Shown one piece after another: positions 6,940-33,098 of a stretch of 34,828 bases of DNA. The notes beneath the pieces were generated by a model, which saw only the letters and a program-made list of their open reading frames with translations, was not told the DNA's origin and made no database searches. Position numbers and translations under genes: made by a program. Position 1 is the first letter of the stretch. Each line of letters opens with the position of its first letter. The stretch covers positions 1 through 34,828 of the forward strand of contig SUPS01000002.1 in NCBI GenBank assembly GCA_005191415.1, given 5' to 3'. This DNA is from Candidatus Helarchaeota ASGARD archaeon Hel_GB_A. Lineage in GTDB: Archaea > Asgardarchaeota > Lokiarchaeia > Helarchaeales > HEL-GB-A.

Positions 6940-6962
6940 AACAGATTATACGAGGATTGGAA

Positions 6963-8144
6963 ATGAATGCGAAAACGCGATTTTTAATGGCATTGAATCA
7001 TGAGGAGCCAGATAGGGTCCCTTTATTTGAGATTGGAGTAGATTCAGTTCCTGTATTAAAGAAATATGGCGGAAAAAGTTTAGCTGATATGGTCAATTTA
7101 ATGAAATTAGGGCGTTTTATTTTAGGTTGGAAACAAATTTTCGGCTGGATAGTTACTCGGAAATATACCCTGAAATTACTAGGAAAATCAGTAGTAAAAT
7201 TATTTAAATCGATGGGATATGATGCGACCGTGGTTCCAGTCACCTTATTTCTGACAAAAAAGAAGAAATTTCTCTCTACAACACGATATGTTGATGAATA
7301 TGGCAGGGTAATGAAATTTTCAAAAGTCGAATCCGGAGGTGAAATGGTAAGTATCGCATATTATGATGGAGGTTTCTTTGATACGGATGATCCAGAAGCG
7401 GCTTACGATGAATGGGGACCACTGGATCCTGATCATCGCACAAGAGCAGCTGCATATCAAGGAGCAATAAAAGAAGCAAAGGATCAGATTTATGTTTTTC
7501 CTGGTATTATGGGATTCTTAGAATCTTCTTGGGAATGTTTTGGATTTCCAACCTTTACCAAACTTTTATACACGAAACCTCATTTTATAGAACGCGTATT
7601 CCGAGATCATGGGGATTTTTCGGTAGCGGTTGCAGAGAATATGATGAATTTAGGCGCCAAAACCGTTTTTGTGTATGATGATGCAGGGCATAAATCAGGT
7701 CCTTTTCTCAGTCCGAAAATGTACCAGAAATTAGTAATTCCTCACCTAAAGCGTCTCTGTGATAAGGTTCATTCATACGATGGAAAAGTCATCCTCCATA
7801 GTGACGGTAACCTTTACAAAATTCTTGATATGATTGTGAATGCAGGGATTGATGGGCTTCATCCGATTGAGGCGGGTTCCGGAATGGATATTTTTCAAAT
7901 AAAACAAGATTATGGGGAACGAATCTGTCTAATCGGAAATGTCGATCCGATTGAGTTATTAACACATGGTACTCCCGAAAAAGTGGAGCGTTATGTGAAA
8001 CGATTAATACAAGAATGTGGACCTGGGGGAGGATACTGTCTCGCTTCTGGTCATTCAATTACATACTCCGTGACTTTAGAAAATTTTGAAGCGATGCTTG
8101 CTGCAGGGCGAAAATACGGTAAGTATCCAATCAATATTGAATAA
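6963..8144 (+). CDS. Uroporphyrinogen decarboxylase (URO-D)-family protein, possible corrinoid methyltransferase
   Basis: A 393-residue TIM-barrel protein of the URO-D superfamily, opening with the usual TRFLMALNHEEPDRVPLFE. It ends with GIDGLHPIEAGSGMDI, ICLIGNVDPIELLTHGT and CLASGHSITYSVTLENFEAM, the pattern of URO-D-like methyltransferases (MtaA/MtbA-type) found in anaerobes rather than of HemE. A methyltransfer role near a corrinoid-dependent CODH/ACS cluster would make sense, but no corrinoid protein is adjacent and the substrate is unknown. I chose the ATG at 6963, with GAGGA about 7 bases upstream, over a TTG two codons earlier. It lies on the same strand as the CODH operon but 415 bases before it, so it is probably a separate unit. 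Confidence 0.8.
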   Translation: MNAKTRFLMALNHEEPDRVPLFEIGVDSVPVLKKYGGKSLADMVNLMKLGRFILGWKQIFGWIVTRKYTLKLLGKSVVKLFKSMGYDATVVPVTLFLTKKKKFLSTTRYVDEYGRVMKFSKVESGGEMVSIAYYDGGFFDTDDPEAAYDEWGPLDPDHRTRAAAYQGAIKEAKDQIYVFPGIMGFLESSWECFGFPTFTKLLYTKPHFIERVFRDHGDFSVAVAENMMNLGAKTVFVYDDAGHKSGPFLSPKMYQKLVIPHLKRLCDKVHSYDGKVILHSDGNLYKILDMIVNAGIDGLHPIEAGSGMDIFQIKQDYGERICLIGNVDPIELLTHGTPEKVERYVKRLIQECGPGGGYCLASGHSITYSVTLENFEAMLAAGRKYGKYPINIE

Positions 8145-8559
8145 TCTTAAGTGATCTTTATCCAAGATAGATGATTAGATAAAAATTTGACTTTTTCTAA
8201 GATGATCAAAAGTATAGAAGAAAAGTAGTAATCCAAATTCTGAGAAAATATTTGTTTAAATATAATTTTTTTGATATGAACTTTTACTCAATTTACCTTA
8301 CTCTATTTCAATGCCTGATAATTACAGAGTGAGTATTACTTAGGATGGTGAAGGGTAATACTAGAAAACGAAATTAACGGTGGAGATATCGAAACAAGTT
8401 AGATTTTGTAAGTGATTTTATCTATAGAAGATTTTAAATTTGAATTCTTTTATCGTCATGTAGATTTTTGATAGCATAAAAAAAATATTTTTAAAAAGAA
8501 AAATTTGATTGAATGTAAATCCAAACAAAATACAGCTAAGTAAAATTGGTGAAGAAAAA
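8145..8559 (+). other. 415-base non-coding leader before the CODH/ACS operon
   Basis: No credible protein frame is present. It contains a perfect 8-base inverted repeat (8332-8339 and 8355-8362) and, near its 3' end, an AT-only block around 8474-8500 with several TATA-like sequences (ATAAAAAAAATATTTTTAAAA). A ribosome-binding site GGTGA at 8548-8552 precedes the cdhA ATG. The length is unusual for this compact DNA and suits a regulated promoter or a long 5' leader. Confidence 0.5.
8332..8362. repeat. Perfect inverted repeat in the CODH leader
   Basis: AGTATTAC at 8332-8339 is the exact reverse complement of GTAATACT at 8355-8362, with a 15-base loop. As DNA it could be an operator for a dimeric regulator; as RNA it would be a weak hairpin in the leader. 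It lies about 200 bases before the cdhA start. Only the symmetry is observed. Confidence 0.45.
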
Positions 8560-10905
8560 ATGGCAGATGAAAGTGCCAAAATAAAGATTAACGATTTAGA
8601 AACTGATACTATAAAGGCAAAAAACTTGGAGATACACATTGGTAAAATTCCAATGGAAGAATGGAAAGAGGAACCACAAGGTCCAACGCCCATGCCCGGG
8701 ATTAAAGATTTACGGGACTGGGATTTTCGATTAATGGAAAAATATCCGCCGTTCTATGCTCCATTTTGCGATATGTGTTGTTTATGCACATATGGTAAAT
8801 GCGATCTGAGCGGTGGTGCACATGGAGCATGCGGGATCGATTTAACAGCCCAACAAGCTCGTATAGTAATGATAGCATGTGCAATTGGATGTGCATGTCA
8901 TGCTGGGCATGCACGCCATCTAGTCCATCATTTAATCGAAAAATTTGGACCAAATACGCCTCTTGACTTAGGACCAGAAATAGATGTTGAAGCACCTGTA
9001 GTTCGAACTGTCTGTGGATATAAACCAAAAACAATGAAAGATCTTGAGATTGCATTGGATTATGTAGACATGCAGATCATGCATTGTCTCGGAGCAGGAC
9101 ATACTGGGCAGGAAGGTTCAGCATTAGATTTTGAATCAAAAGCTTTACATTTAGGAATGTGCGATTTCGTGGGGATGGAAATTGCAGACCTTGCTCAAAT
9201 TGCAGGATGGAATTTCCCAAAAGGAGATCCAGAGGCAGAGTTAGTTGAAATCGGTCTTGGAGCCATCGATATTAATAAGCCCGTTATATTAATGGTGGGA
9301 CATAATGTTGCACCTGGTATAGAAGTTACGAATTATATGCGCAAATCTAATAATTATGGTAAATTAGAGGTATGTTCTATTTGTTGTACAGCAATAGATC
9401 ATACTCGATATGATTTTGGGGCAAAAATTGTTGGATCAATGGGTATGCAGTTACGATTTATTAGATCTGGTGTTCCTGATGTGATTATGGTAGATGAACA
9501 ATGTATACGTTGTGATTTAATTGATGAAGCAAAGAAGATTAAAGCACCACTCATCGCAACAAATGAGAAAGCATGTCATGGATTAAAAGATAGAACAAAT
9601 GATCCTGCAGATCAAATTGTAGATGATTTAGTAAGTGGTAAAGAACCAGCAGCATTGATTTTCGATTCCGATAAGGCGGGGGAGGTGGCAGTTCGTGTCG
9701 CATTAGCTGTAGCTCCAAAACGTCAGAAATTTAAAAGTTTAATGGATTTTTCAGAAATTCAAAAACTTGCATCTCAATGCAAACAATGTAATATTTGTCA
9801 GCGAAATTGTCCAAATAATTTACCGATACCTAAAGCATTAAAGCTTGCATCGCAAGGGAATTTCAGTTTATTAGAAGATTTATGGGAGCGCTGCGTTGGT
9901 TGTGGGCGTTGTGAGAATGGATGTCCCAATAATCTTAATCCACATTCCATAATTGCTGTTGCAGGAGAAAGCATTTTCAAACAAGACAAATATATGATAC
10001 GGTGTGGCCGAGGACCTGTTAAAGATACTGAAATTCGGAATGTGGGAGCACCCATTGTGCTCGGAGAAATTCCAGGAGTTATTGCATTAGTGGGTTGTGC
10101 AAATTATCCTAATGGTCCGCGAGAAGTAGCAAAAATAGCAGAAGAATTCTGTAAAAGACGGTATATTGTAGTTGCAACAGGTTGCTCTGCTATGGATATT
10201 GCACGAGTAAAAGATGAAGATGGAAAATCACTCTATGAGAGATTTCCAGGCGATTTCGATGCAGGAGGTATGGTAAATATAGGGTCTTGTGTATCCAATG
10301 GGCATATTGTCGGAGCTGCTATTAAAATAGCGAGTATCTTTGCACGAAGAAATTTGCGCGGAAATTTTGAAGAAATTGCAGATTATATTTTAAATCGTGT
10401 AGGAGCGGTTGGGATTGCATGGGGCGCAATGAGTCAAAAGGCAGCATCAATCGCTACAGGGTGCAATCGGTTTGGGATACCGGTCATCATAGGCCCACAT
10501 GGAGCTAAATATCGACGACAATATCTTGGCCGGAGTGATAATGATGAAAGTTGGATGGTAATCGATGCTCGAACAGGAAATAAAGTGTATGGAGGACCTT
10601 GCCCAGAGCATCTAATTTACGCCGCAGAATCTGTAGAGGAGTGTATTGTTGAAGCCGCAAAATTATGTATGCGTCCGAGTGATAATTTTAAGGGGCGTGC
10701 GGTTAAATTGACACATTGGATCGATTTACATAAAAGATACTACGGATGCCTACCACCAGATATCGAAAAGTTTATCCGAATTGAGGCTGATATCCCAATA
10801 ACACTGAAGGATGAATTAATGCCTATTTTGAAATCTAAGGGTTGGAAACCCACAGAAATCCCAGATCCAACATTATTACCGAGGTTAGTTCGTAAAAAAG
10901 CTTAA
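8560..10905 (+). CDS. cdhA: CO dehydrogenase/acetyl-CoA synthase complex, alpha subunit (CODH)
   Basis: The nickel-iron CO dehydrogenase subunit of archaeal CODH/ACS, which interconverts CO and CO2 and passes electrons through Fe-S clusters. The cysteine block for the D and B clusters starts at residue 70 (Cys70, 73, 74, 76, 81, then 91). C-cluster candidates appear in IMHCLGAGHTG, EVCSICCTAIDHTRYDFG, LVGCANYPNGP, ATGCSAMD and GSCVSNGH. The two extra [4Fe-4S] ferredoxin motifs that mark the archaeal alpha subunit are at Cys407 (CKQCNICQRNCP) and Cys445 (CVGCGRCENGCP). The length of 781 residues fits. I chose the ATG at 8560 because GGTGA precedes it by 7 bases; a TTG 17 codons earlier has no such site. 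It is the first gene of the cdhABC-D-E operon, 15 bases before cdhB. Confidence 0.97.
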   Translation: MADESAKIKINDLETDTIKAKNLEIHIGKIPMEEWKEEPQGPTPMPGIKDLRDWDFRLMEKYPPFYAPFCDMCCLCTYGKCDLSGGAHGACGIDLTAQQARIVMIACAIGCACHAGHARHLVHHLIEKFGPNTPLDLGPEIDVEAPVVRTVCGYKPKTMKDLEIALDYVDMQIMHCLGAGHTGQEGSALDFESKALHLGMCDFVGMEIADLAQIAGWNFPKGDPEAELVEIGLGAIDINKPVILMVGHNVAPGIEVTNYMRKSNNYGKLEVCSICCTAIDHTRYDFGAKIVGSMGMQLRFIRSGVPDVIMVDEQCIRCDLIDEAKKIKAPLIATNEKACHGLKDRTNDPADQIVDDLVSGKEPAALIFDSDKAGEVAVRVALAVAPKRQKFKSLMDFSEIQKLASQCKQCNICQRNCPNNLPIPKALKLASQGNFSLLEDLWERCVGCGRCENGCPNNLNPHSIIAVAGESIFKQDKYMIRCGRGPVKDTEIRNVGAPIVLGEIPGVIALVGCANYPNGPREVAKIAEEFCKRRYIVVATGCSAMDIARVKDEDGKSLYERFPGDFDAGGMVNIGSCVSNGHIVGAAIKIASIFARRNLRGNFEEIADYILNRVGAVGIAWGAMSQKAASIATGCNRFGIPVIIGPHGAKYRRQYLGRSDNDESWMVIDARTGNKVYGGPCPEHLIYAAESVEECIVEAAKLCMRPSDNFKGRAVKLTHWIDLHKRYYGCLPPDIEKFIRIEADIPITLKDELMPILKSKGWKPTEIPDPTLLPRLVRKKA

Positions 10906-10920
10906 AGGAGGTTATGATGC

Positions 10921-11451
10921 ATGTCAGTAAAACCATGGCAATTTACTGCTATAAATCCAAAATTAGGAATTGCAATGAAATCACCAGTTCAAATAGCGAA
11001 GATTCTCAAAAAAGCGAAAAGACCTTTAATCGTTGTTGGTGCATTAGCAAATCAGATAGAAGTTCATGATGGGAAAAAACTATTAGATATACTGATTGAG
11101 CTCGGAAAAAAAATTCCAATTGTCGCAACATCCAATATTTCTAAAGCCTTTATTGAGAAAGGATTTACTCCTGCAGCGCTAATGACGGTAGTAAATATAA
11201 CTAATCGTTTGTCTGATCCTGAATGGAAAGGATTAGATGGAAAGGGACAGTATGATGTCGTTGTTTACACCGGAATGACAATATATTTAGAACTTCAAAT
11301 GCTTAATAGACTTAAACACTATGCGACATGGCTCAAAACGATTAGTTTAGAACGGTACTTTATTCCTAATGCAAGTATTGGTTTAGCAAATTTGAAAGAA
11401 GAAGATTGGAAAAATGGAATGAAAGAATTCATGGAAGAAATGAATAAATAA
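10921..11451 (+). CDS. cdhB: CODH/ACS complex, epsilon subunit
   Basis: A 176-residue small subunit that binds CdhA in the archaeal complex; its exact role is unsettled, and it has been proposed to help electron transfer to FAD. The family core is clear: MKSPVQIAKILKKAKRPLIV, VGALANQIE, IPIVATSNISKAFIEKG and the YDVVVYTGMTIYLELQ strand. A strong ribosome-binding site, AAAGGAGGT at 10904-10912, overlaps the cdhA stop and fixes the ATG at 10921; the two ATGs just upstream are out of frame. The epsilon subunit is found in archaeal but not acetogen complexes, which supports an archaeal host. Confidence 0.95.
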   Translation: MSVKPWQFTAINPKLGIAMKSPVQIAKILKKAKRPLIVVGALANQIEVHDGKKLLDILIELGKKIPIVATSNISKAFIEKGFTPAALMTVVNITNRLSDPEWKGLDGKGQYDVVVYTGMTIYLELQMLNRLKHYATWLKTISLERYFIPNASIGLANLKEEDWKNGMKEFMEEMNK

Positions 11452-11465
11452 AGGAGTGGTGAATT

Positions 11466-12974
11466 ATGTCGAAAGGTATGTGGGATGATATTCCAGTTGA
11501 TGTAGGATTAGTTTATGAAGGAGAGAGAATCCGTAAAAAACAAATGCAAGTTGAATTAGGTGGTCCGAAGATTACCGAAAAGTTTGAATTGGTTCAAGCG
11601 CGAGAAATGGATGAAATTGAAGATGGGAAAGTTATTGTTGTAGGACCAGATATTTCTGATATGAAAGTTGGCGAATCTTATCCCTTAGGAATTATAGTAG
11701 AAGTCGCAGGTGGAATGGTTGAAAAAGATTTAGAGGCAGTTCTTGAAAGACGAATACATGAATTCATGAATTATATCGAAGGATTTATGCATCTAAATCA
11801 ACGATATGATATATGGTGTAGATTATCTCAAGGAAGCTTCAAAAAAGGATTAAATTCTCTTAAAATAATTGGAACAGTATTGACTCGCCTTTATAAATCA
11901 GAATTTACAAACGTTATTGAAAAAATACAGGTTACTTTTTATACCGATGCAGAAAAGATTAAGCCATTATACGAGAAAGCAAGAGAAATTTATAACGCAA
12001 GAGATGCGCGAGCAAGAGGATTGACTGATGAAGAAGTTCCAGAATTTTATGGATGTACTCTTTGCCAAAGTTTTGCACCATCACACGTATGTACTGTTAC
12101 ACCTCAACGAATTTCATTGTGCGGAGCTATAAATTGGTTTGATGCACGTGCAGCTGCTAAAGTAGATCCAAAAGGTCCAAACTTCAAGATCGAAAAGGGA
12201 GAATTACTTGATCCTGTTAAAGGTGAATATTCGGGTATTAATGAGATTACTAAAAAGAAGTCCTTAGGAGAAGTAGAACGAGTCCATCTCTATACAATAC
12301 TAAGTCCCTACAATCATACTTCATGTGGTTGTTTCGAAGCAATTGCATTTTACATTCCAGAAGTTGAAGGAATCGGAATTGTAGATAGAAATTTTAAGGG
12401 TAATACTGTTAATGGATTACCCTTTAGTACAATGGCGAATAGTACAGGTGGAGGAAGACAAACAGTAGGATTTGTTGGAATGGCAATTGAGTATATGAGA
12501 TCTCCTAAATTCTTTTCAGCAGATGGTGGTTGGAAACGAGTTGTATGGCTTCCTGCTAATGTAAAAGAAAATGTTAAGGATGCAATTCCTACAGAATTAT
12601 ATGACAAAATTGCTACTGAACAAGAAGCACCTGATCTAGCATCTTTAAAGGAATTTCTTAAAGAGGCAGACCATCCAGTTAAAGAATATTGGACAGAAGA
12701 AGAGGAAGAAGAAGAGGAAGAAGAAGAAGCGGAAGCTGCTGCACAGATGATGCAGATACCAACTCAGATGCCTCAAATGCAAATGGGTGCCCCTCAAATG
12801 GTAGGGGGAATGATACAGCTCCCTATGTTCGGGGCAGTACAATTTCCTGCAGGCGCAATTGGTGGGCTAGGTGGTGGACAATGGAAAATTATTCTAAAAA
12901 ATGCGAAAATATACGCCGAAGAAATGATTATTAAACGCGTAGAAAAACCTAAGAAAAAACAAAAGAAAAAGTAG
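11466..12974 (+). CDS. cdhC: CODH/ACS complex, beta subunit (acetyl-CoA synthase)
   Basis: The subunit that assembles or cleaves acetyl-CoA on the nickel-iron A-cluster. The A-cluster cysteines are visible: Cys197, Cys200, Cys209 and Cys219 in the stretch from CTLCQSF to SLCGAINWFD, and Cys287-Gly-Cys289 in SCGCFEAIAFY. The length of 502 residues fits the archaeal short form, which lacks the N-terminal CODH-binding domain of bacterial AcsB. Residues about 410-422 are a run of glutamates, followed by a Met/Gln/Pro/Gly-rich linker and a C-terminal KIILKNAKIYAEEMIIKRVE segment with a lysine-rich end, a layout known in archaeal CdhC. The ribosome-binding site AAAGGAG precedes the ATG. Next downstream, 9 bases away, is a 40-codon mini-gene. 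Confidence 0.97.
   Translation: MSKGMWDDIPVDVGLVYEGERIRKKQMQVELGGPKITEKFELVQAREMDEIEDGKVIVVGPDISDMKVGESYPLGIIVEVAGGMVEKDLEAVLERRIHEFMNYIEGFMHLNQRYDIWCRLSQGSFKKGLNSLKIIGTVLTRLYKSEFTNVIEKIQVTFYTDAEKIKPLYEKAREIYNARDARARGLTDEEVPEFYGCTLCQSFAPSHVCTVTPQRISLCGAINWFDARAAAKVDPKGPNFKIEKGELLDPVKGEYSGINEITKKKSLGEVERVHLYTILSPYNHTSCGCFEAIAFYIPEVEGIGIVDRNFKGNTVNGLPFSTMANSTGGGRQTVGFVGMAIEYMRSPKFFSADGGWKRVVWLPANVKENVKDAIPTELYDKIATEQEAPDLASLKEFLKEADHPVKEYWTEEEEEEEEEEEAEAAAQMMQIPTQMPQMQMGAPQMVGGMIQLPMFGAVQFPAGAIGGLGGGQWKIILKNAKIYAEEMIIKRVEKPKKKQKKK
12695..12730. repeat. GAA/GAG low-complexity run inside cdhC
   Basis: A purine-only run of GAA and GAG codons encodes an acidic linker of CdhC between the catalytic part and the C-terminal segment. 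It makes long mirror frames rich in Arg-Gly or Phe, which are not genes. Run length is likely to vary between strains. Confidence 0.8.
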
Positions 12975-12983
12975 GTTATCCCC

Positions 12984-13106
12984 TTGGCAGAGAAAAAAGA
13001 AGAATCTTATCTTGAAAGGAGATTAAAAGAGATCTTAGATACCAAAGGTGATATCGTTTTAAAAGAGGTCAGAATAGAGATAGACAAATTAGAGCTTTCA
13101 GATTAG
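12984..13106 (+). CDS. 40-residue mini-protein resembling the CdhD N-terminus
   Basis: Between cdhC and cdhD a short frame starts at TTG 12984 and ends at TAG 13104-13106, 17 bases before cdhD. It encodes a charged helical peptide with RRLKEILDTKGDIVLKEVRI and EIDKLELSD. Aligned without gaps to CdhD residues about 8-42 (QKRLNKLLANVNEIILKNIV and IESEELEF) it has 11 identities in 34 positions plus many conservative matches. It may be a duplicated docking helix or strand. It is in a different frame from cdhD, so it is not just a frameshifted extension. The ribosome-binding site is weak (AGGTTAT). In Methanosarcina this slot holds the nickel-insertion gene cooC, which is absent here. The similarity is observed; expression and function are unknown. 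Confidence 0.5.
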   Translation: MAEKKEESYLERRLKEILDTKGDIVLKEVRIEIDKLELSD

Positions 13107-13123
13107 AAATCAAATGTCTAAAG

Positions 13124-14398
13124 GTGAAAACAGTGGAAAACGAGAAGTTTTCGGAGTTTCAAAAAAGATTAAATAAATTATTAGCAAATGTAAATGAAAT
13201 TATTCTCAAAAACATAGTGATAGAATCAGAAGAATTAGAATTTCAGGTAGGTAGAGAAGGCAAAGGAGCAATTCCATCACAAATAATGCAAATGATGCGG
13301 CCTATGCTGGGAGCTGTAAAACCAATATTAGCGGAGATAGCTTGGAAGCAAGTTGAATTTGCAAATCCTGCTGATACATATCCTGGAGAAATTGTTGAAG
13401 TTAAATTTATTAGATCTGGAAGAGGAGGAAAAGTAATCACAATTGGTGGTGAAAAAGTTCCTCCTTATTACCGATTTGAAGGGGAGAATCCACATCCACC
13501 CGTAGTTACAGCAGATGTTTTTGATATACCTGTAAATACGAAAACACGTCCTACATTTTTACGTCTTGCAAAACCAGTCAAAGACCATCTCCTACAACCT
13601 GAAGACGTTACAACAGATATGGCAGCATGGGCAAAAAAGAGTGTAGAAGTCTTTGGGGCTGAAATGATTACCCTCCATTTCATAGGAACCGACCCTACGA
13701 TTCCAGAAAAGCTTGGAGGGAAAAAGCCTCCGAAATGGGCAGCCCAAAATTTGGAGGAAGTATTACAGACAGTTGACGTACCCATCGTAATTGGTGGCTC
13801 AGGAAATCATGAAATGGATCCTAAAGTTTTTGAAGCCTGCGCGCAAGTTGGGGAAGCAGAAAGATTGCTTTTGAGTTCCTTAGAGATGGAAACATATGAA
13901 AAAATAGCCCCTATTGCTAAAAAATATGATCATAATGTGTTGGCTTGGACTAAATTGGAATTAAATGATCAAAAGAAGTTAAACTCAGAACTTATGGAAA
14001 TGGGTATTCCGAAAGACCATATCATAATTGATCCTACTTGTGCAACTCTTGGATATGGATTAGAATATAGTTTCTCTATTTATGAAAGGATTCGGCTGGC
14101 TGCTTTGAAAGGAGAAGAAAGTTTACAATGTCCAATGAGTGGTGGAACAACTAATGCATGGGGAGCACGTGAGGCGTTCCTTCCAGATAGAGATCATCCT
14201 GAATGGGGTCCACGTGCTTACCGAGGACCATTATGGGAAATTATGACTGCATATGTATTAAGCATGTGTGGACTTGATTTAGCGATGATGTTGCATCCCG
14301 GAGCGCAAATGGGTTTCAAATCAATTGTAAAAGCATTAACAACGAAAGAAAAAGGTCCTACTGTAAATCCTTTAGAATGGATTACAATGGAGGTTTAA
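13124..14398 (+). CDS. cdhD: CODH/ACS complex, delta subunit (corrinoid Fe-S protein small subunit)
   Basis: The small subunit of the corrinoid iron-sulfur protein, which with CdhE carries the methyl group between tetrahydropterin and the A-cluster. At 424 residues it has the family TIM-barrel features: DVFDIPVNTKTRPTFLRLAK, VPIVIGGSGNHEMDPKVFEA, HIIIDPTCATLGYGLEYSFS and CPMSGGTTNAWGAREAF. I give the GTG at 13124; a second in-frame GTG at 13133 has AAAGGTG about 6 bases upstream and could be the true start. It follows the mini-gene by 17 bases and leads into cdhE by 6 bases, so the genes are surely co-transcribed. Confidence 0.96.
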   Translation: MKTVENEKFSEFQKRLNKLLANVNEIILKNIVIESEELEFQVGREGKGAIPSQIMQMMRPMLGAVKPILAEIAWKQVEFANPADTYPGEIVEVKFIRSGRGGKVITIGGEKVPPYYRFEGENPHPPVVTADVFDIPVNTKTRPTFLRLAKPVKDHLLQPEDVTTDMAAWAKKSVEVFGAEMITLHFIGTDPTIPEKLGGKKPPKWAAQNLEEVLQTVDVPIVIGGSGNHEMDPKVFEACAQVGEAERLLLSSLEMETYEKIAPIAKKYDHNVLAWTKLELNDQKKLNSELMEMGIPKDHIIIDPTCATLGYGLEYSFSIYERIRLAALKGEESLQCPMSGGTTNAWGAREAFLPDRDHPEWGPRAYRGPLWEIMTAYVLSMCGLDLAMMLHPGAQMGFKSIVKALTTKEKGPTVNPLEWITMEV

Positions 14399-14404
14399 GT
14401 ATCA

Positions 14405-15859
14405 ATGGCGAAAATTAGTCCATTACAAGTAACACCATTACTTCCTGGCACTAATTGTGGAGAATGTGGAGAAGAAACTTGCATGGCATTTGCAGTAAAA
14501 CTTTTAGACCATGTTTATACCGTTGATGATTGCAAACCTCTGGTAAAAGAAAAAAAGTACGCAAAAAAATTTGCAAAATTAAAGGAAATGACTACACCGC
14601 CGATTCGTGCAGTAAAAGTAGGTGTAGGAGAACGGCAGATCGTTATAGGAGGCGAAGAGGTTTTATACAGACATGAATTGACATATTATTCACCTACAGC
14701 AATTATACTTTCTGCACCTGACGATAATCTCTCATTAATTGAAGAACGCGCAAAATTGGTTCGAGATTTAGAAGTATATAGGATTGGTACTTTATTAAAG
14801 ATACAAGGATTAGCTATTCGTTCAAAATCAAATGACCCTGCTACTTTTGCAAAAGCCGTAAAAACTGCTATTGCAACTGCTGATATTCCACTTATACTTT
14901 GTTCAACAAATCCAGCTGTGTTAAAAGCAGGAGCTAACGCTGCTAAAGGTAAAAATCCATTACTCTATGCCGCAACAAAAGAAAATTTTAAAGAAGTAGG
15001 ACAGATTGCCTTAGAACATAATTGTGGTGTAGTTGTTTATTCGATGGATCTTAATGAACTCGCTAGTTTAGCAGCATCACTGTATGCTGCAGGACTAGAA
15101 AAAATTGCTTTAGATCCGGGAATAGAACCTTCAGATGGATGCTTTGCGGATTCTCTTGATCGGTTCATGATGTTAAGAAAGGCGGCGATCAAAGGTGACA
15201 AAAATGTGGGATGGCCGATCGTTACACCGATAGCCTCCGCTTGGATAGGAAAAGATCCAAATTTAAGCGAAGCAGAACGCATTGAAACTGCATTTCGGGA
15301 AGCAGAAATGGGAGCAACCTTTATCGCCCGAGCAAGTAATATGCTCATCCTTCATTCTGCAGATTCTTGGTTGCTTCTCGGACTTATGGTATTACGTCAG
15401 GGAATCTATTCAGACCCACGAATTAATCCTTCTGTCGAAGCTAAACTTTATGAGATCGGTAATCCGAATGAAAATTCACCCGTATTTATGACCACAAATT
15501 ATACCATGACATATTTTGTAGTTAAGGATGATTTAGAAGCATTAAAACTTGATGCCTACTTATTATTAGTTGATTCTGAGGGAATTTGTGTTGAATCTGC
15601 AATTGCGGGTGGACAAACTAAAGCAGAACATGTTGCGGAAGCTATCAAAGAAAGTGGTTTAGAGAATAAAGTAAAACATCGAATAATAATTATTCCTGGA
15701 TTAGCAGCACGAATTTCTGGCGAATTAGAGGCATTATCTAATTGGAAAGTACTAGTAGGACCAAGAGATTCTGGAGGAATTGGTGCATTCCTAAAAGCAA
15801 AATGGGATGGGAAGTTAGATCAGCTCATGCAAGAATGGAAAGAGATGCAAGAGGAATAA
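14405..15859 (+). CDS. cdhE: CODH/ACS complex, gamma subunit (corrinoid Fe-S protein large subunit)
   Basis: The large subunit of the corrinoid iron-sulfur protein. It binds the cobamide and a [4Fe-4S] cluster used for reductive activation. The cluster motif is at the N-terminus: Cys18, Cys21, Cys26 and Cys43 (TNCGECGEETC, then DDC). The middle is a TIM barrel, and the C-terminal 130 residues (from about 355) look like the corrinoid-binding Rossmann domain (LLLVDSEGICVESAIAGGQT, HRIIIIPGLAARISGELEAL, VLVGPRDSGGIGAFL). Length 484 is normal. The ribosome-binding site GGAGGTTTAA overlaps the end of cdhD. A double poly-T tract follows, so the operon probably ends here. Confidence 0.97.
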   Translation: MAKISPLQVTPLLPGTNCGECGEETCMAFAVKLLDHVYTVDDCKPLVKEKKYAKKFAKLKEMTTPPIRAVKVGVGERQIVIGGEEVLYRHELTYYSPTAIILSAPDDNLSLIEERAKLVRDLEVYRIGTLLKIQGLAIRSKSNDPATFAKAVKTAIATADIPLILCSTNPAVLKAGANAAKGKNPLLYAATKENFKEVGQIALEHNCGVVVYSMDLNELASLAASLYAAGLEKIALDPGIEPSDGCFADSLDRFMMLRKAAIKGDKNVGWPIVTPIASAWIGKDPNLSEAERIETAFREAEMGATFIARASNMLILHSADSWLLLGLMVLRQGIYSDPRINPSVEAKLYEIGNPNENSPVFMTTNYTMTYFVVKDDLEALKLDAYLLLVDSEGICVESAIAGGQTKAEHVAEAIKESGLENKVKHRIIIIPGLAARISGELEALSNWKVLVGPRDSGGIGAFLKAKWDGKLDQLMQEWKEMQEE

Positions 15860-16940: not shown

Positions 16941-17486
16941 TTATTTATTTGTAGATTTTAGTAGGTTCCACAATTCTAATATACGTTTTCCCAGTTTTTT
17001 TGTAGATTCTATACTTTCAATGTCTTTAATTATCTCTCTTTCCATAAAAGCAATTCCACAAACACCTCTATTTGCAGGAATCATCTCATGTTTTAGAAAA
17101 AAGGAGGTAATGGCTGTAATTGCGCTTTCTAAGCCGTATTTTCTACCAACTACAATCGCGCCACCAATCTTGTTTTTAAGTTGTCCTCTTAAGGACCAGG
17201 TACGATCAATAAACGATTTTAATTGAGCGGATACATTGTTAAAATAGACTGGACTTCCTAGAACAAACCCATCGCTTTCTCTTAGTAAAGGGACAAGTTT
17301 TTTATTAAAATCATCGTTAATCGTGCATTTACTCATTTCAAGGCATTTTCTGCAAGAATTACATGGTTTTATATTATAATCTGTCAGTTTGATAAATTTA
17401 CCTCCCGTTATAGATAATGCAAGTTTAAGGAGATAATCCGTATTACTATTTTTTCGCGGACTTCCCGAGATATAGGTAACTTTCAT
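16941..17486 (-). CDS. Iron-sulfur flavoprotein (NADPH-dependent FMN reductase family)
   Basis: A 181-residue flavodoxin-like FMN protein. The FMN phosphate loop GSPRKNSNTD is at residues 8-17. A compact CX2CX2CX5C motif follows (Cys42, 45, 48, 54; PCNSCRKCLEMSKC), which is the [4Fe-4S] signature of the archaeal iron-sulfur flavoprotein (Isf) family. GSPVYFNNVSAQLKSFIDRT is the second flavin-binding loop. Such proteins pass electrons from ferredoxin or reduce small oxidants. The start at 17486 has a good site (GGTGA, 6 bases upstream). A longer frame to 17591 only reads into the nifB 3' repeats and is rejected. It follows nifB on the same strand, so electron supply to NifB or to CODH is a fair guess. 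Confidence 0.88.
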   Translation of the reverse strand: MKVTYISGSPRKNSNTDYLLKLALSITGGKFIKLTDYNIKPCNSCRKCLEMSKCTINDDFNKKLVPLLRESDGFVLGSPVYFNNVSAQLKSFIDRTWSLRGQLKNKIGGAIVVGRKYGLESAITAITSFFLKHEMIPANRGVCGIAFMEREIIKDIESIESTKKLGKRILELWNLLKSTNK

Positions 17487-17525: not shown

Positions 17526-17650
17526 TTTTACTCTAAACCTGGAATTGAGCATGCATCGGCTCGACACTGAGCATGCATCGGCTCGACTCAATGGATTTTA
17601 CTCTAATTTTACTCTAAACCTGGAATTGAGCATGCATCGGCTCGACACTG
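17526..17650. repeat. Direct-repeat patch duplicating the 3' end of nifB
   Basis: A 44-base sequence occurs identically at 17526-17569 and 17607-17650, 81 bases apart (27 codons). A 19-base core (GAGCATGCATCGGCTCGAC on the plus strand) occurs three times, at 17547, 17569 and 17628. TTTTACTCTA also occurs three times, at 17526, 17596 and 17607. The copy at 17607-17650 encodes the last residues of NifB, QCRADACSIPGLE plus the stop. The others lie after that stop, before the flavoprotein start. This looks like a local duplication scar. It is too short and irregular for CRISPR. Confidence 0.9.
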
Positions 17651-18406
17651 TTTACAGAGGCGAAATTGAGTTATAATTGTTTCGCATTGATTTCGTATAT
17701 TACGAAGCAATTCACACGTGGGAGCTGGAATATAACTCAATTCCGAAAGAGGAATAAGTGGCATAATATTTTGAATATAGACCCCTATTTTCTTTATTTT
17801 TTTAGCAACTTCAATTAAATGGAAATCATTTATTCCAGGTATTAAGACACTATTTACTTTTGTCAGCATACCTAGATTTACACAAGCTTTTAGTCCTGCT
17901 ATTTGGTTTGTTATTAATATCTTAGCGGCAGTGAAACCAGAATATCTCGTATAGTCATAACGAATCCATGAATAAATGTTCTTTCCAATGATGGGAGAAA
18001 CGGCGTTTAAAGTGACGGTAATGTAGCGGATCCCTATGTCATAAAGATACCGAGCAAATTTAGAGAGCAATAATCCATTGGTGCAGAGACACGTTTGTGC
18101 TTCTGGGTATTTCGAATGAATTAGTTCGAGGGTTTGGAAAGTTTCGTTATTATAGAGCGCTTCTCCTGGTCCTGCAATTCCAATGACAACTTCTTTAAAT
18201 TTTTTTGTTTTGTAATGAGAATCCACTAATTTCAAAGCATCTTTGGGGGTTATGATTTGATTTGATACCCCAGGTCTCATGGCGTGATATTTAATACCTA
18301 TTTTTCGGTCACAGTATTTACATTTGATGTTACATTTCAAAGCTACAGGAAGATGGATTCGAAATACTCGAAAATGCGCGACATCATTGAAACATGGATG
18401 AGTCAA
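17609..18406 (-). CDS. nifB: NifB-family radical SAM protein (FeMo-cofactor precursor synthase)
   Basis: NifB fuses two [4Fe-4S] clusters and inserts a carbide to make the 8Fe-9S-C precursor of nitrogenase cofactor. This 265-residue protein has the compact archaeal form without a NifX-like tail. The N-terminal HPCFND motif (His3, Cys5) and the radical-SAM motif CNIKCKYC (Cys25, 29, 32) are present. Family blocks follow: GIAGPGEALYN, LCTNGLLLSKFARYLYDIGI, TVTLNAVSPIIGKNIYSWIR, KVNSVLIPGINDFHLIEVAK and NIMPLIPLSE. The C-terminal CKQCRADA motif (Cys251, Cys254) is the NifB signature. Its ATG overlaps the TFB stop by 4 bases, so it is translated from the same message. No nifH, nifD or nifK is in the window; the client enzyme is unknown. 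Calling it NifB is secure; nitrogen fixation is not implied. Confidence 0.88.
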   Translation of the reverse strand: MTHPCFNDVAHFRVFRIHLPVALKCNIKCKYCDRKIGIKYHAMRPGVSNQIITPKDALKLVDSHYKTKKFKEVVIGIAGPGEALYNNETFQTLELIHSKYPEAQTCLCTNGLLLSKFARYLYDIGIRYITVTLNAVSPIIGKNIYSWIRYDYTRYSGFTAAKILITNQIAGLKACVNLGMLTKVNSVLIPGINDFHLIEVAKKIKKIGVYIQNIMPLIPLSELSYIPAPTCELLRNIRNQCETIITQFRLCKQCRADACSIPGLE

Positions 18407-19416
18407 TGCAGACTCTTGATAACTTTCATTAATTGGGAACCACCTTTTTTATTTTTAATTGGATAGAGTTTTAGATCCAATTTTTCTACGATTTCTTTAT
18501 ATCTGTTACGGATAGTTACTTCTGAGACATGCGAAACTCTTGAAATTTTCCTTTGGCTGCAATGTTCTCCTTCTAAGAGCCCTGCAATATAAATAACAGC
18601 TGCTGCTAATCCTTTTGGATCTTTCCCAGAAGTTAAATTTTTCTGATACGCTAATTGAATAATTTTACAGGCTTTCAATTGAATAGTAGGTGATAAATTA
18701 AGCTCTTCACTAAAACGAACGATGTATTCTAGTGGATCTATGTTACGAATTTTTAAATTCAAGCATTCAATTAAATAACGATAAGTTCTAGCAATATTTT
18801 TCTTATTTGCTTTTGAATGAGTTGCAAGTTCTTCTAGTAAAATTGGGAAATTATAAATATGGCATGCCACATAAATTGATGCTGCGACCGTTTCTGAAAT
18901 AACTTTTCCTTTAAGATATTGCCCTTTAGCAGCCTTACGATAGATAAAAGCTGCCATTTCTTTGATATTTGCAGATAATTCTATTTGAGATGCTAATCGA
19001 TCAAGTTCATTCATTGCAGTATTTAAATTTCTTGCAATATTTCGGTGGAGATGTGAATTAAATTGCCAATAACGTAATCGATAGAGTTGTGCTCGTTTAT
19101 TACTTGCTATTTTTCTGCCTAAAAAGTCCTGATTATATCGATCTATTATAGTGGAGAGTCCTTTATCATAGATCCTAAATGATATAGGCCCTCCAGTTCT
19201 GGTCCTATTCTCTTTTTCGGTAGAATCATAGGCACGCCATTCAGGTCCATGGTCAATAACATGATCTAAAACAACAATGCCACATTCTCCACATATAATT
19301 TCGCCCCGCGAATAATCTTGGATAAAATAAAAGTTATTACCACATTCAGGGCATATATACGTCTCACACTCAGATTTTTTTTCTTTAATTTTAGATGGAA
19401 AAATCATTTGCTTCAT
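18403..19416 (-). CDS. tfb: Transcription initiation factor TFB (TFIIB homologue)
   Basis: The archaeal general factor that binds TBP and the BRE and recruits RNA polymerase. Full length at 337 residues. An N-terminal zinc ribbon has Cys22, Cys25, Cys42 and Cys45 (CPECG, then CGECGIV). The B-reader/linker region is ERAY-like (PEWRAYDSTEKENRTRTGG). Two cyclin folds follow, with AASIYVACHIYNFPILLEEL in the first and AAVIYIAGLLEGEHCSQRKI plus a helix-turn-helix (SHVSEVTIRNRYKEIVEKL) in the second. Asgard and other archaea often have several TFBs; this one is tied to nifB by a 4-base ATGA overlap, which is unusual for a general factor and suggests a specialised paralogue. No clear ribosome-binding site precedes the start. 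Confidence 0.95.
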   Translation of the reverse strand: MKQMIFPSKIKEKKSECETYICPECGNNFYFIQDYSRGEIICGECGIVVLDHVIDHGPEWRAYDSTEKENRTRTGGPISFRIYDKGLSTIIDRYNQDFLGRKIASNKRAQLYRLRYWQFNSHLHRNIARNLNTAMNELDRLASQIELSANIKEMAAFIYRKAAKGQYLKGKVISETVAASIYVACHIYNFPILLEELATHSKANKKNIARTYRYLIECLNLKIRNIDPLEYIVRFSEELNLSPTIQLKACKIIQLAYQKNLTSGKDPKGLAAAVIYIAGLLEGEHCSQRKISRVSHVSEVTIRNRYKEIVEKLDLKLYPIKNKKGGSQLMKVIKSLH

Positions 19417-19849
19417 GCATCTCAGAAATTTTGTAAAAAAGTTGCTTTTTTTAGTCTTAAAGAAATGAATAGTCTTAAAGAAATGAATATATTAAGCAGC
19501 GTAATTTTTAGAGCATATCTGGAAGAATTCACATCTCGGACCTATTTTTCTTTATTAATGACGAAGAATAATTTTAATACAATTTCTATATTTTATTTCT
19601 AAATTACTTTTAAATTGAAGTAATAAATAAGTATTTTTCTAGATTTTGTAATATAATTAGTCATTATTTTACATTCTGTAATATATCTAAAATTTAGAAA
19701 ATTAAATCTTATCTTTTAGAATTCTCCTTTAAGACAGGTACTTCATGAAAATAGAAATTATCATAATTTTTTGAGAAAGAAGATTAAAGAGAGGAGAGGG
19801 GCGTTAATTTTTTTAGAATAATTCGTTTTATTCCATTAGTTGAATGGTA
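19417..19849. other. 433-base AT-rich intergenic region between TFB and the IscU-like gene
   Basis: I see no credible gene. It contains an 18-base tandem duplication at 19453-19488, 37 bases before the TFB start, and long A/T runs that could hold the TFB promoter. A plus-strand frame across 19318-19602 is an artefact of TFB and the duplication. The purine stretch AGAGAGGAGAGGGGCG at 19789-19804 lies just past the end of the IscU-like gene and starts nothing visible. Confidence 0.5.
19453..19488. repeat. 18-base perfect tandem duplication upstream of TFB
   Basis: AGTCTTAAAGAAATGAAT occurs at 19453-19470 and immediately again at 19471-19488 without a mismatch. It lies 37-72 bases before the TFB start, where promoter or operator elements would be. 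It may be a recent replication slip or a doubled protein-binding site. Confidence 0.85.
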
Positions 19850-20296
19850 TTATTCATCTTCTTCTGAATTTTCAAAGGTATCCAATGCTTTTTTTAAGGT
19901 ATTAACAGCGAGAAGAGCACAATGTTGGTGTTCAGGTGGAAGACCATCCAATGCTTCTGTAAGGGCTTCTGGAGTAATTTTTTTTGCTTCAGCAATTGAT
20001 TTATTTAGAACCATTGTGGTCAATTTACTACCACATGCAATAGTGGGACCACAACCATCGGTCATAAAGGAAGCATCAGTAATAATCCCATTTTGAATTT
20101 TCAAAAAAATCATTTGCGTATCGCCACAAGGACCTTTGATGGTTGCTTTCGCGTTTGCATCTTCTATTTTCCCCCAATTCTTAGGATTATAATATTCTTC
20201 AACAACTTTCCTAGAAAAAGTGCGTAATTCTTCTTGGTAGATTTCTTCTTGCAATTCATCGATGAATTTATCGAATTCTTTGTCATCAACTCTCAT
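19850..20296 (-). CDS. IscU/NifU-type Fe-S cluster scaffold protein
   Basis: A 148-residue scaffold on which [2Fe-2S] or [4Fe-4S] clusters are built before transfer to apo-proteins. The fold begins after a helical N-terminus (1-30) with EYYNPKNWGKIEDANAKATI. Conserved ligands are Cys57 with Asp59 (GPCGDT), Cys82 (DGCGPTIACGS, which also has Cys88) and Cys126 (HQHCALLA). The start at 20296 follows AGGTGG by 6 bases; a Met five codons further upstream has no such site. No cysteine desulfurase is next to it. It lies upstream of TFB and NifB on the same strand but 433 bases away. Together with CODH/ACS, NifB and HdrA it fits heavy local demand for Fe-S clusters. Confidence 0.92.
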   Translation of the reverse strand: MRVDDKEFDKFIDELQEEIYQEELRTFSRKVVEEYYNPKNWGKIEDANAKATIKGPCGDTQMIFLKIQNGIITDASFMTDGCGPTIACGSKLTTMVLNKSIAEAKKITPEALTEALDGLPPEHQHCALLAVNTLKKALDTFENSEEDE

Positions 20297-20416
20297 GAGA
20301 AGCCACCTCATGTCTAAAAATTCATTTGTTTATTTAAAATTGAGTTTTCAAATTGTAAGATATTTTAGTCACAAATAGTGAAAAATATAAAAAGATTGTT
20401 GGTAAAACAATATTTG

Positions 20417-30678: not shown

Positions 30679-30695
30679 TACTATACGTGAGCAAT

Positions 30696-33098
30696 ATGGC
30701 AGAACCAAAGATAGGTATTTTTCTATGCTCCTGCGGCACGAACATAGGAGGCACAATTGATTTAGAAAAAGTTAAATCGGAATTGGGAAAAAATCCGAAT
30801 TATTTTGTATTTGATGATTTATATTTATGTTCAGAAGCAGGGCTGGCGAAAATTAAAGAGAATCTCAAAGAAAAGATTGAGAGAAATGAGCTGGATAGGG
30901 TTGTTATTGCTGCTTGTACGCCAAAGCTACATGGACCTTTATTTCAAGATGTGATAAGTCAGCTAGGTATCAACCCCTGCTATATTGAATTCGCGAATGT
31001 TCGAGAACAGGATAGTTGGGTGCATCAATCCGAAGACCATGATGCTGCAACGAATAAAGCCATTGATCTTATTAAAATGGCAATTGCGCGAGTAAAAAAC
31101 GCACGACCCGTTCGAAAATCTTTTACAAAAATTGCTAAAAAAGCACTTGTAATAGGGGGCGGAATTGCCGGAATAAAAGCTAGTTTATCAATCGCAGATG
31201 CAGGATATCCGGTCTATTTAGTAGAGAAAAGTCCAAGTATTGGCGGACATATGGCAATGTATGATAAAGTATTTCCTACATTTGATTGTGCTATTTGCAT
31301 ACTTGCCCCCTTAATGGTAGAAGTAAGTAGGCACCCCAATATCACACTTTTGACAAATTCTGAAATAAAAAGAGTAGAAGGCGTTATGGGAAATTTTCAA
31401 GTGGAAATAGTAAAACATCCACGGTATATAGATGAAGAGAAATGCACTGCGAGTTGCATTGAAACTTGCTCTAAAGAATGTCCAATTGAAGTCCCAGATG
31501 CCTTCAATCAGGGATATTCTACCCGGAAAGCTATATATCTCCCATTTCCACAAGCAGTTCCATATATCGCAACTATTGATCCTAGTGCCTGTATTGGGTG
31601 TAGAGCATGCGAAGCTATGTGTGAACGGGATGCCATTGATTTCAATCAGAAAGAGGAAATACTTTCAATTGAAGTGGGTGCAATCATCGTTGCTACAGGA
31701 TTTAGGACTTTGGACCCTACACCTTTAGAGATGTTCGGATATAATGAATATGAAAACATTATTACATCTTTAGAATTGGAACGGATATTGAATCCAACCG
31801 GACCAACACGGGGAACTTTAGCTTGTCCTTCTGATGGACATTTGCCTAAAAAAATGGCTTTTCTTTTATGTGTAGGAAGTCGAGATCTTCATCCACTGGC
31901 ACATTCATATTGTTCGGGCGTTTGCTGTATGTATAGCATTAAACATGCAATAGAGATTGCAAGAAGATATGAAGATATAGAAATTTATATACTATATATA
32001 GATATTAGAACACCTGGGAAAGGATATGAAGAATTCTATTTGAAAGCCCAACAAATGAAAAATATCCATTTCATAAGAGGACGATTAGGGGAAATTTTGG
32101 AAGATCCAAAATCTAAAAAATTGATTATACGAGCAGAAGATACATTACTGTGCGAAATAATTGAGTTGGAAGTTGATTTAGTAGTTCTAGCTACGGCTAT
32201 AGAACCTTCTGAAAGTACCATGGAATTAGCTAATGTTTTAAAAGTAGTTGTGGACCATGATGGCTTTTATCAAGAAGAGCATCCAAAAATCAAGCCTGAA
32301 ACAGCATCATTACCTGGTATTTACGTGGCTGGGTGTATTCAAGGACCTAAAGATATTCAAACAACAATTCTTCAAGCTGAAGCTGCTGCCTTAAAAGTCG
32401 TAACTATGATTCAACAAGATTTACTTGAAATTAATCTATTTACCCCTACAATTGATACAGACCTCTGTCGAAAGTGTCTACTTTGTGAATTAAGCTGTGA
32501 TCGTAATGTCATCAATATCCAAAAGGATAAAATTGAAATCCGCGAGTTAGGATGTGCCGGCTGCGGAAACTGTTCTGCCGTTTGTCCAGAAAATGCCATT
32601 GATTGTGCAGTTTTCAATAATAATCAGATTATCGAGGAAATAAATGTAGTTTTAGAAGATAAAAAAGAATTTCCATTAATAATTGGATTTTTCTGCAATT
32701 GGTGTTCCTACAGTGCAGCCGATTTAGCAGGAATATTTAAAATTCAATATCCGACAAATATTCGCATTATTCGAGTATTTTGCACCGGGAGAATCAATCC
32801 GCAATTCATTATTCATGCATTTATGAAAGGGGCAGATGGGGTTTTAGTAGCTGGCTGTTATCCCCAGGATTGCCACTATCGAACTGGATTCATAAAAGCA
32901 TCACAACGTATTTCAGGATTAAAGGAATTATTAAAATCAGAAGGAATCAATCCTGAACGCCTGAAAATAGTCAGTGCATCGGCAACTGAGGCACAAAAGA
33001 TCGCAGAAGAAATCACACAATTCACTAAAAAACTTGAAACATTAGGTCCAAGTGGTATAGAAATTGCGGCTAAATCTCCAGCTAAAGAATCTGTATAG
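30696..33098 (+). CDS. hdrA: HdrA-MvhD fusion, heterodisulfide-reductase-type electron-bifurcating subunit
   Basis: An 800-residue flavin and Fe-S protein that joins HdrA to an MvhD-like domain. HdrA part: N-terminal CSCG (Cys11, Cys13), FAD motif GGGIAGIKAS near residue 155, VFPTFDCAICILAP, an inserted ferredoxin domain (TASCIETCSKECP, then CIGCRACEAMCERDAI), YCSGVCCMYSIKHA and a second ferredoxin domain near residue 590 (CRKCLLCELSCD, CAGCGNCSAVCPENAI). MvhD part, last 160 residues: FFCNWCSYSAADLAG, VFCTGRI and GCYPQDCHYR. In methanogens this pair bifurcates electrons from a hydrogenase or formate enzyme to ferredoxin and a disulfide. HdrB/HdrC and hydrogenase genes are not in the window. 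GTGA precedes the ATG at 30696 by 5 bases; a GTG three codons earlier is possible. Likely a ferredoxin-linked partner for CODH. Confidence 0.93.
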   Translation: MAEPKIGIFLCSCGTNIGGTIDLEKVKSELGKNPNYFVFDDLYLCSEAGLAKIKENLKEKIERNELDRVVIAACTPKLHGPLFQDVISQLGINPCYIEFANVREQDSWVHQSEDHDAATNKAIDLIKMAIARVKNARPVRKSFTKIAKKALVIGGGIAGIKASLSIADAGYPVYLVEKSPSIGGHMAMYDKVFPTFDCAICILAPLMVEVSRHPNITLLTNSEIKRVEGVMGNFQVEIVKHPRYIDEEKCTASCIETCSKECPIEVPDAFNQGYSTRKAIYLPFPQAVPYIATIDPSACIGCRACEAMCERDAIDFNQKEEILSIEVGAIIVATGFRTLDPTPLEMFGYNEYENIITSLELERILNPTGPTRGTLACPSDGHLPKKMAFLLCVGSRDLHPLAHSYCSGVCCMYSIKHAIEIARRYEDIEIYILYIDIRTPGKGYEEFYLKAQQMKNIHFIRGRLGEILEDPKSKKLIIRAEDTLLCEIIELEVDLVVLATAIEPSESTMELANVLKVVVDHDGFYQEEHPKIKPETASLPGIYVAGCIQGPKDIQTTILQAEAAALKVVTMIQQDLLEINLFTPTIDTDLCRKCLLCELSCDRNVINIQKDKIEIRELGCAGCGNCSAVCPENAIDCAVFNNNQIIEEINVVLEDKKEFPLIIGFFCNWCSYSAADLAGIFKIQYPTNIRIIRVFCTGRINPQFIIHAFMKGADGVLVAGCYPQDCHYRTGFIKASQRISGLKELLKSEGINPERLKIVSASATEAQKIAEEITQFTKKLETLGPSGIEIAAKSPAKESV

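Follow-up and report, generated by a model that had tools for sequence, protein, structure and literature searches.

A NifB without detected nitrogenase in an MCR-bearing Asgard-type archaeon: a probable supplier of L-clusters for MCR activation

The MCR activation complex of M. maripaludis was analyzed by cryo-EM and contains three [8Fe-9S-C]-type L-clusters, which are located in McrC (ligands H49, H118, C12 and C55) and Mmp7 (ligands H84, C143 and possibly C90) (PMC12176620). The clusters were assigned by cryo-EM, and the authors call for further proof of the carbide (PMC12176620). NifB is essential in methanogens that lack nitrogenase, where it is probably the supplier of the L-cluster; it was also reported from Asgard archaea (PMC12176620). 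Helarchaeota with mcrABG have been described, for which an MCR-type alkane-oxidising metabolism was proposed and no dissimilatory nitrogen metabolism was reported (PMC6478937). Of the 20 papers listed in a literature search for NifB in Thorarchaeota, Helarchaeota or Lokiarchaeota, none mentions nifB.

The window (the whole 34.8-kb stretch of DNA that was analyzed) is located at the beginning of a contig of 50.3 kb. The nifB gene (17609-18406, minus strand) codes for a single-domain NifB radical SAM enzyme of 265 aa, counted from a TTG start. Its identification as a NifB-type ORF in the first-pass annotation is upheld by a profile search (TIGR01290, 272 bits, E 6e-81), and the best PDB matches are the NifB structures 7bi7, 7jma and 6y1x. 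PF04055 is also matched. The TIGR01290 score is below the equivalog cut-off (343.65 bits), with the 441-position model being matched only to position 275; three other single-domain NifBs from the phylum likewise score below this cut-off. The protein shares 39-51% identity with the NifBs sampled from bacteria and methanogens.

The ligands were checked using the numbering of the M. acetivorans NifB, which has C50, C54 and C57 for the SAM cluster, C30, C63, C129 and H43 for K1, and C264, C274 and C277 for K2 (PMC7145814). In the ligand alignment, the window NifB retains C50/54/57 (radical SAM motif CX3CX2C, here CNIKCKYC), the K1 ligands C30, H43 and C129, and all three K2 cysteines (C264, which is variable among NifBs, C274 and C277). 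It had been stated that all NifB signatures are intact; this is correct for the residues just listed and incorrect for Cys63, which is replaced by Ile in a loop devoid of any Cys. The corresponding residue is Ala in a second copy from the same genome (on contig C21), and the NifB of the MCR-bearing relative G003 also has no Cys in this loop. Cys63 is not an absolute requirement in the family, because an actinobacterial NifB (L034) that is encoded beside nifH and four nifD/K/E/N-type genes also lacks it. The window NifB resembles the single-domain methanogen enzymes in its single radical SAM domain, its SAM-cluster and K2 cysteines, His43, Cys30 and Cys129, but differs in K1 position 63, in its unusual start, in the upstream TFB gene and in the existence of two copies. 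We consider it a putative working carbide-cluster synthase; the missing K1 ligand Cys63 counts against this reading.

A search of the window for nitrogenase genes found none, as had been noted before. The question of which enzyme uses the NifB product is real for the window, but the remainder of the genome offers a good answer. McrC, Mmp7, Mmp17 and A2 of the MCR activation complex are all present: contig C37 codes for A2, Mmp7, Mmp17 and Mmp15, and contig C53 codes for McrC, McrD and the McrA glutamine methyltransferase. All of these score above their NCBIfam cut-offs except McrD, which is below; Mmp7 and McrC were detected by PF04609. When aligned to the 8s7v chains, all seven L-cluster ligands are conserved (C12, H49, C55 and H118 of McrC; H84, C90 and C143 of Mmp7). 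There are two McrA genes, one of which is clustered with McrB, McrG and a second A2 ATPase. The McrA proteins are divergent (TIGR03256, 550-566 bits versus a cut-off of 768). The nifB copies are not adjacent to mcr or activation genes, which speaks against a role of NifB in MCR activation. The genome thus shares with M. maripaludis the activation proteins, all reported L-cluster ligands and a NifB without nitrogenase (PMC12176620), while it differs in having a divergent McrA, two McrA genes and two A2 proteins in an Asgard-type host. Clusters of mcrABG in an Asgard lineage have a precedent in Helarchaeota (PMC6478937).

The first-pass annotation had left the choice between a nitrogenase elsewhere and another enzyme served by the carbide cluster. 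The latter option is supported by the MCR activation complex, and searches of the genome revealed no protein of the nitrogenase type. MCR activation needs the same carbide cluster, and thus the seemingly client-less NifB very probably has a client of a known kind. From the gene content and the ligand pattern, we predict with high confidence that NifB is the source of the L-clusters used to activate MCR/alkyl-CoM reductase. In an MCR-bearing and probably alkane-oxidising Asgard-type archaeon, NifB would produce the [8Fe-9S-C] L-cluster, which would be delivered to McrC and Mmp7. The L-clusters of these proteins would pass electrons to the F430 nickel and activate the MCR-type enzymes encoded in the genome. 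A NifB that supplies MCR activation has already been proposed (PMC12176620), so that the window NifB joins a known kind of system.

This assignment is in line with the distribution of NifB among relatives. Among the genomes of its class and order, NifB was detected only in G000 (the genome under study) and G003, which are also the only two with Mmp7/McrC. In this class, nitrogenase was not detected, and NifB is kept exactly where McrC/Mmp7 are kept, which supports the link between NifB and MCR. It represents independent genomic support outside Euryarchaeota for a role of NifB and its carbide cluster in MCR activation. In another relative, G001, a divergent match to McrA was obtained, but neither Mmp7/McrC nor NifB was found; the occurrence of NifB thus follows that of the activation proteins and not that of McrA. 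The match in G001 (G001:C103:30835-31227, L095) is McrA-like with 36 bits and lies in a 609-codon frame. Across the phylum sample, NifB is present in 45 of 228 genomes and Mmp7/McrC in two, both of which have NifB. This overlap is weaker evidence than the class-level pattern. Because 43 of the 45 NifB-bearing genomes lack Mmp7/McrC, NifB can have other clients.

The second nifB, on contig C21, codes for a protein that is 69% identical to the window NifB, and it has no TFB gene beside it. The two copies differ at 26, 14 and 55% of codon positions 1, 2 and 3, respectively, and have diverged under purifying selection. This pattern also disfavours a pseudogene, although saturation of dS precluded the calculation of dN/dS. 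A phylogenetic tree, as had been suggested, gave a partial answer: the two copies are sisters (100/100), while the window NifB has no clear placement since the deeper branches are unresolved, including the position of the MCR-linked NifBs relative to the others. The NifBs of family f8 form a separate clade (99/99). Two diverged copies, both under selection, might have split their tasks, one serving MCR activation and the TFB-linked one supplying another acceptor; orphan NifBs, such as those in families f8 and f19, do occur. We consider such a division quite unlikely, because the sister copies share the same ligand set, both being devoid of Cys63, and no candidate acceptor is encoded beside the window copy.

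The gene upstream of nifB (18403-19416, minus strand) codes for a transcription factor B (TFB) of 337 aa (PF00382 twice, PF08271). It is complete, with a zinc ribbon and two cyclin repeats, and its score for NF001658 (374 bits) is slightly below the cut-off of 384. Two exact 18-nt tandem repeats are located immediately upstream (19452-19487). A count of the TFB paralogues, as proposed in the first-pass annotation, gave 10 genes in the genome; the paralogue closest to the window TFB shares 56% identity with it. The reported overlap of four bases between TFB and nifB exists, but the start codon is TTG rather than ATG: in the sequence TTGA, the TFB stop codon TGA lies over the nifB TTG. For neighbouring genes on the same strand, a 4-nt overlap is one of the commonest arrangements, and translation of genes with short overlaps is coupled by termination-reinitiation, also in archaea (PMC10666635). 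The upstream TFB gene would be a neighbour on the same message, and termination of its translation at TTGA would couple translation of nifB to that of TFB.

It had been proposed that this TFB paralogue switches a promoter set together with cofactor supply. In this case, TFB and NifB would be made together as a regulatory unit and a promoter set such as that of mcr would respond. The TTGA-type overlap, an arrangement that is common and couples translation in archaea (PMC10666635), and an intact TFB that is one of 10 paralogues are compatible with this proposal, but short overlaps are very common in themselves. None of the 10 TFB genes is located on a contig that carries mcr or activation genes. 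The expectation that the TFB-nifB adjacency recurs was not borne out: TFB is absent from the flanks of every other NifB locus examined, among them the second copy on C21 and the locus of G003, which also bears MCR (the flanks covered about 9 kb at the main loci and 1.5 kb at most of the f8 loci, and less at contig ends). These searches reject TFB-nifB as a conserved unit. As no TFB flanks the other NifB loci, the coupling is local to the window copy and probably incidental, and a regulatory role of the pair is very doubtful.

The start codons of the nifB genes are atypical. In all other NifB frames with a readable N-terminus, an ATG, GTG or TTG is found 7 to 33 codons ahead of the HPC motif. 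In the window, the sole such start is the TTG two codons ahead of HPC. The C21 copy (L052, 5345-5400) and the gene of G003 (L058, about 10400-10576, complement) have no ATG, GTG or TTG at the expected N-terminus. In a comparison of long open frames (83 from G000, 87 from G003), the first canonical start is deepest in nifB (110 codons in G000, 56 in G003), the next frames having 30 and 52, respectively, so that the margin is small in G003. Codons ATT or ATA, following G(G)TGA-like motifs, are found at plausible start positions. In the window, an ATT at 18431-18433 (minus strand; GGTGG at 18440-18444) is a possible alternative start, which would set the N-terminus 11 codons ahead of HPC, similar to other NifBs. 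A non-AUG start may explain the missing canonical codons, and an assembly or sequence error may do so as well. One may speculate, at rather long odds, that MCR-bearing Asgard-type archaea translate NifB from AUU or AUA to keep L-cluster synthesis low and that the window copy escaped this control via its TTGA coupling to TFB.

The genome-wide search for nif genes, as suggested in the first-pass annotation, was in agreement with the lack of nitrogenase genes in the window. The MAG (3.84 Mb, 333 contigs, 82.8% complete) has no PF00148 protein (NifD/K/E/N), and PF00142 (NifH) gives only weak matches of at most 27 bits. Absence of nitrogenase is not proven by this result, given that the MAG is 83% complete and that cfbC/cfbD, which are needed for F430 and are present in G003, were also not found in the MAG by the PF00148 and PF00142 searches. 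Since these genes are expected, the assembly probably lacks some loci that the organism requires. The client, or an additional one, could thus be a nitrogenase (or an enzyme similar to it) from the unassembled part of the genome, but we regard this as highly improbable. The weak NifH-family matches and the lack of a PF00148 match speak against it, as does G003 (94% complete), where the sole PF00148 protein is CfbD, which acts in F430 synthesis. This protein is encoded beside cfbC and is not a nitrogenase relic. Also, of the 228 genomes sampled from the phylum, just 7 have a PF00148 match, and two of these matches score below the curated cut-off.

Among the other genes of the window, those for HdrA2 and CODH/ACS are in favour of a NifB that serves MCR activation. 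The flavoprotein that had been reported to follow nifB was found (16941-17486, minus strand); it belongs to the NADPH-dependent FMN reductase family (PF03358, 85 bits) and is iron-sulfur flavoprotein-like, with a Cys-rich PCNSCRKCLEMSKC motif. Its ATG (17486) is 122 bp past the nifB stop codon. In the gap between the two genes, the 3' end of nifB is exactly duplicated in tandem (17526-17650, minus strand), with 44-nt copies at 17607-17650 (the genuine end) and 17526-17569 and a 20-nt copy at 17568-17587. The two other neighbours named at first reading, an IscU scaffold and CODH/ACS, were likewise recovered. The IscU/NifU N-terminal-type Fe-S scaffold (19850-20311, minus strand; PF01592; TIGR03419 with 112 bits, below cut-off) could plausibly provide NifB with [4Fe-4S] units. 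The CODH/ACS operon (cdhA, cdhB, cdhC, cdhD and cdhE; 8509-15859, plus strand) is complete and of the archaeal type, with all matches above cut-off (TIGR00314, TIGR00315, TIGR00316, TIGR00381 and NF003195). CODH/ACS, though adjacent, was set aside as NifB client because its clusters are of Ni-Fe-S types with no known need for NifB. An HdrA2-type heterodisulfide reductase subunit (30687-33098, plus strand; NF040770, 1011 bits, cut-off 1100) is consistent with CoM/CoB metabolism. There is also a distant MtaA/CmuA-like methylcobamide:CoM methyltransferase homologue (6957-8144, plus strand; NF004889, 108 bits, below cut-off), and genes for methylmalonyl-CoA mutase and thiolase are present in the window. 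Together with CODH/ACS, these genes would fit an MCR-type alkane-oxidising metabolism similar to the one suggested for Helarchaeota (PMC6478937), both the lineage and the substrate being predictions.

NifBs of other kinds are found elsewhere in the phylum. Family f8 comprises NifBs from 38 genomes (L061 9016-9846, L062, L063, L064, L060 and 33 more). The SAM-cluster Cys, C274/C277, C30, H43 and C129 are kept in all sampled members, and a Roadblock/LC7 gene immediately precedes nifB in the loci that were examined, with Topo VI genes nearby. None of the 38 NifB-bearing genomes has a match to PF00148 or Mmp7/McrC. Family f19 is represented by NifBs with Cys63 in two genomes, G116 and G103 (L054 9005-9808, L056 9638-10441); neither genome, listed as 100% complete with a contamination of 8-11%, has PF00148 or Mmp7/McrC. 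In families with NifB and neither client, NifB must serve another acceptor, and these families make further L-cluster enzymes a directly testable question.

NifD/K-type genes on G087:C57 (L117, L119) and G109:C288 (L081) lack the cofactor Cys and have YPYDFG instead. No NifB match was obtained for G087, which is consistent with its having no need for an L-cluster. In family f18, nflD, nflH and nifB form a row (L055 7140-10063, L057 2417-5198) with a single NifD-like gene, whose product is the only PF00148 protein in each of the two genomes. In an alignment, Cys207 of this protein occupies the position of the cofactor Cys of NifD/NifE, and an MHS motif is found near the cofactor His. This NifD-like protein is a candidate for an L-cluster enzyme of a single-subunit type.
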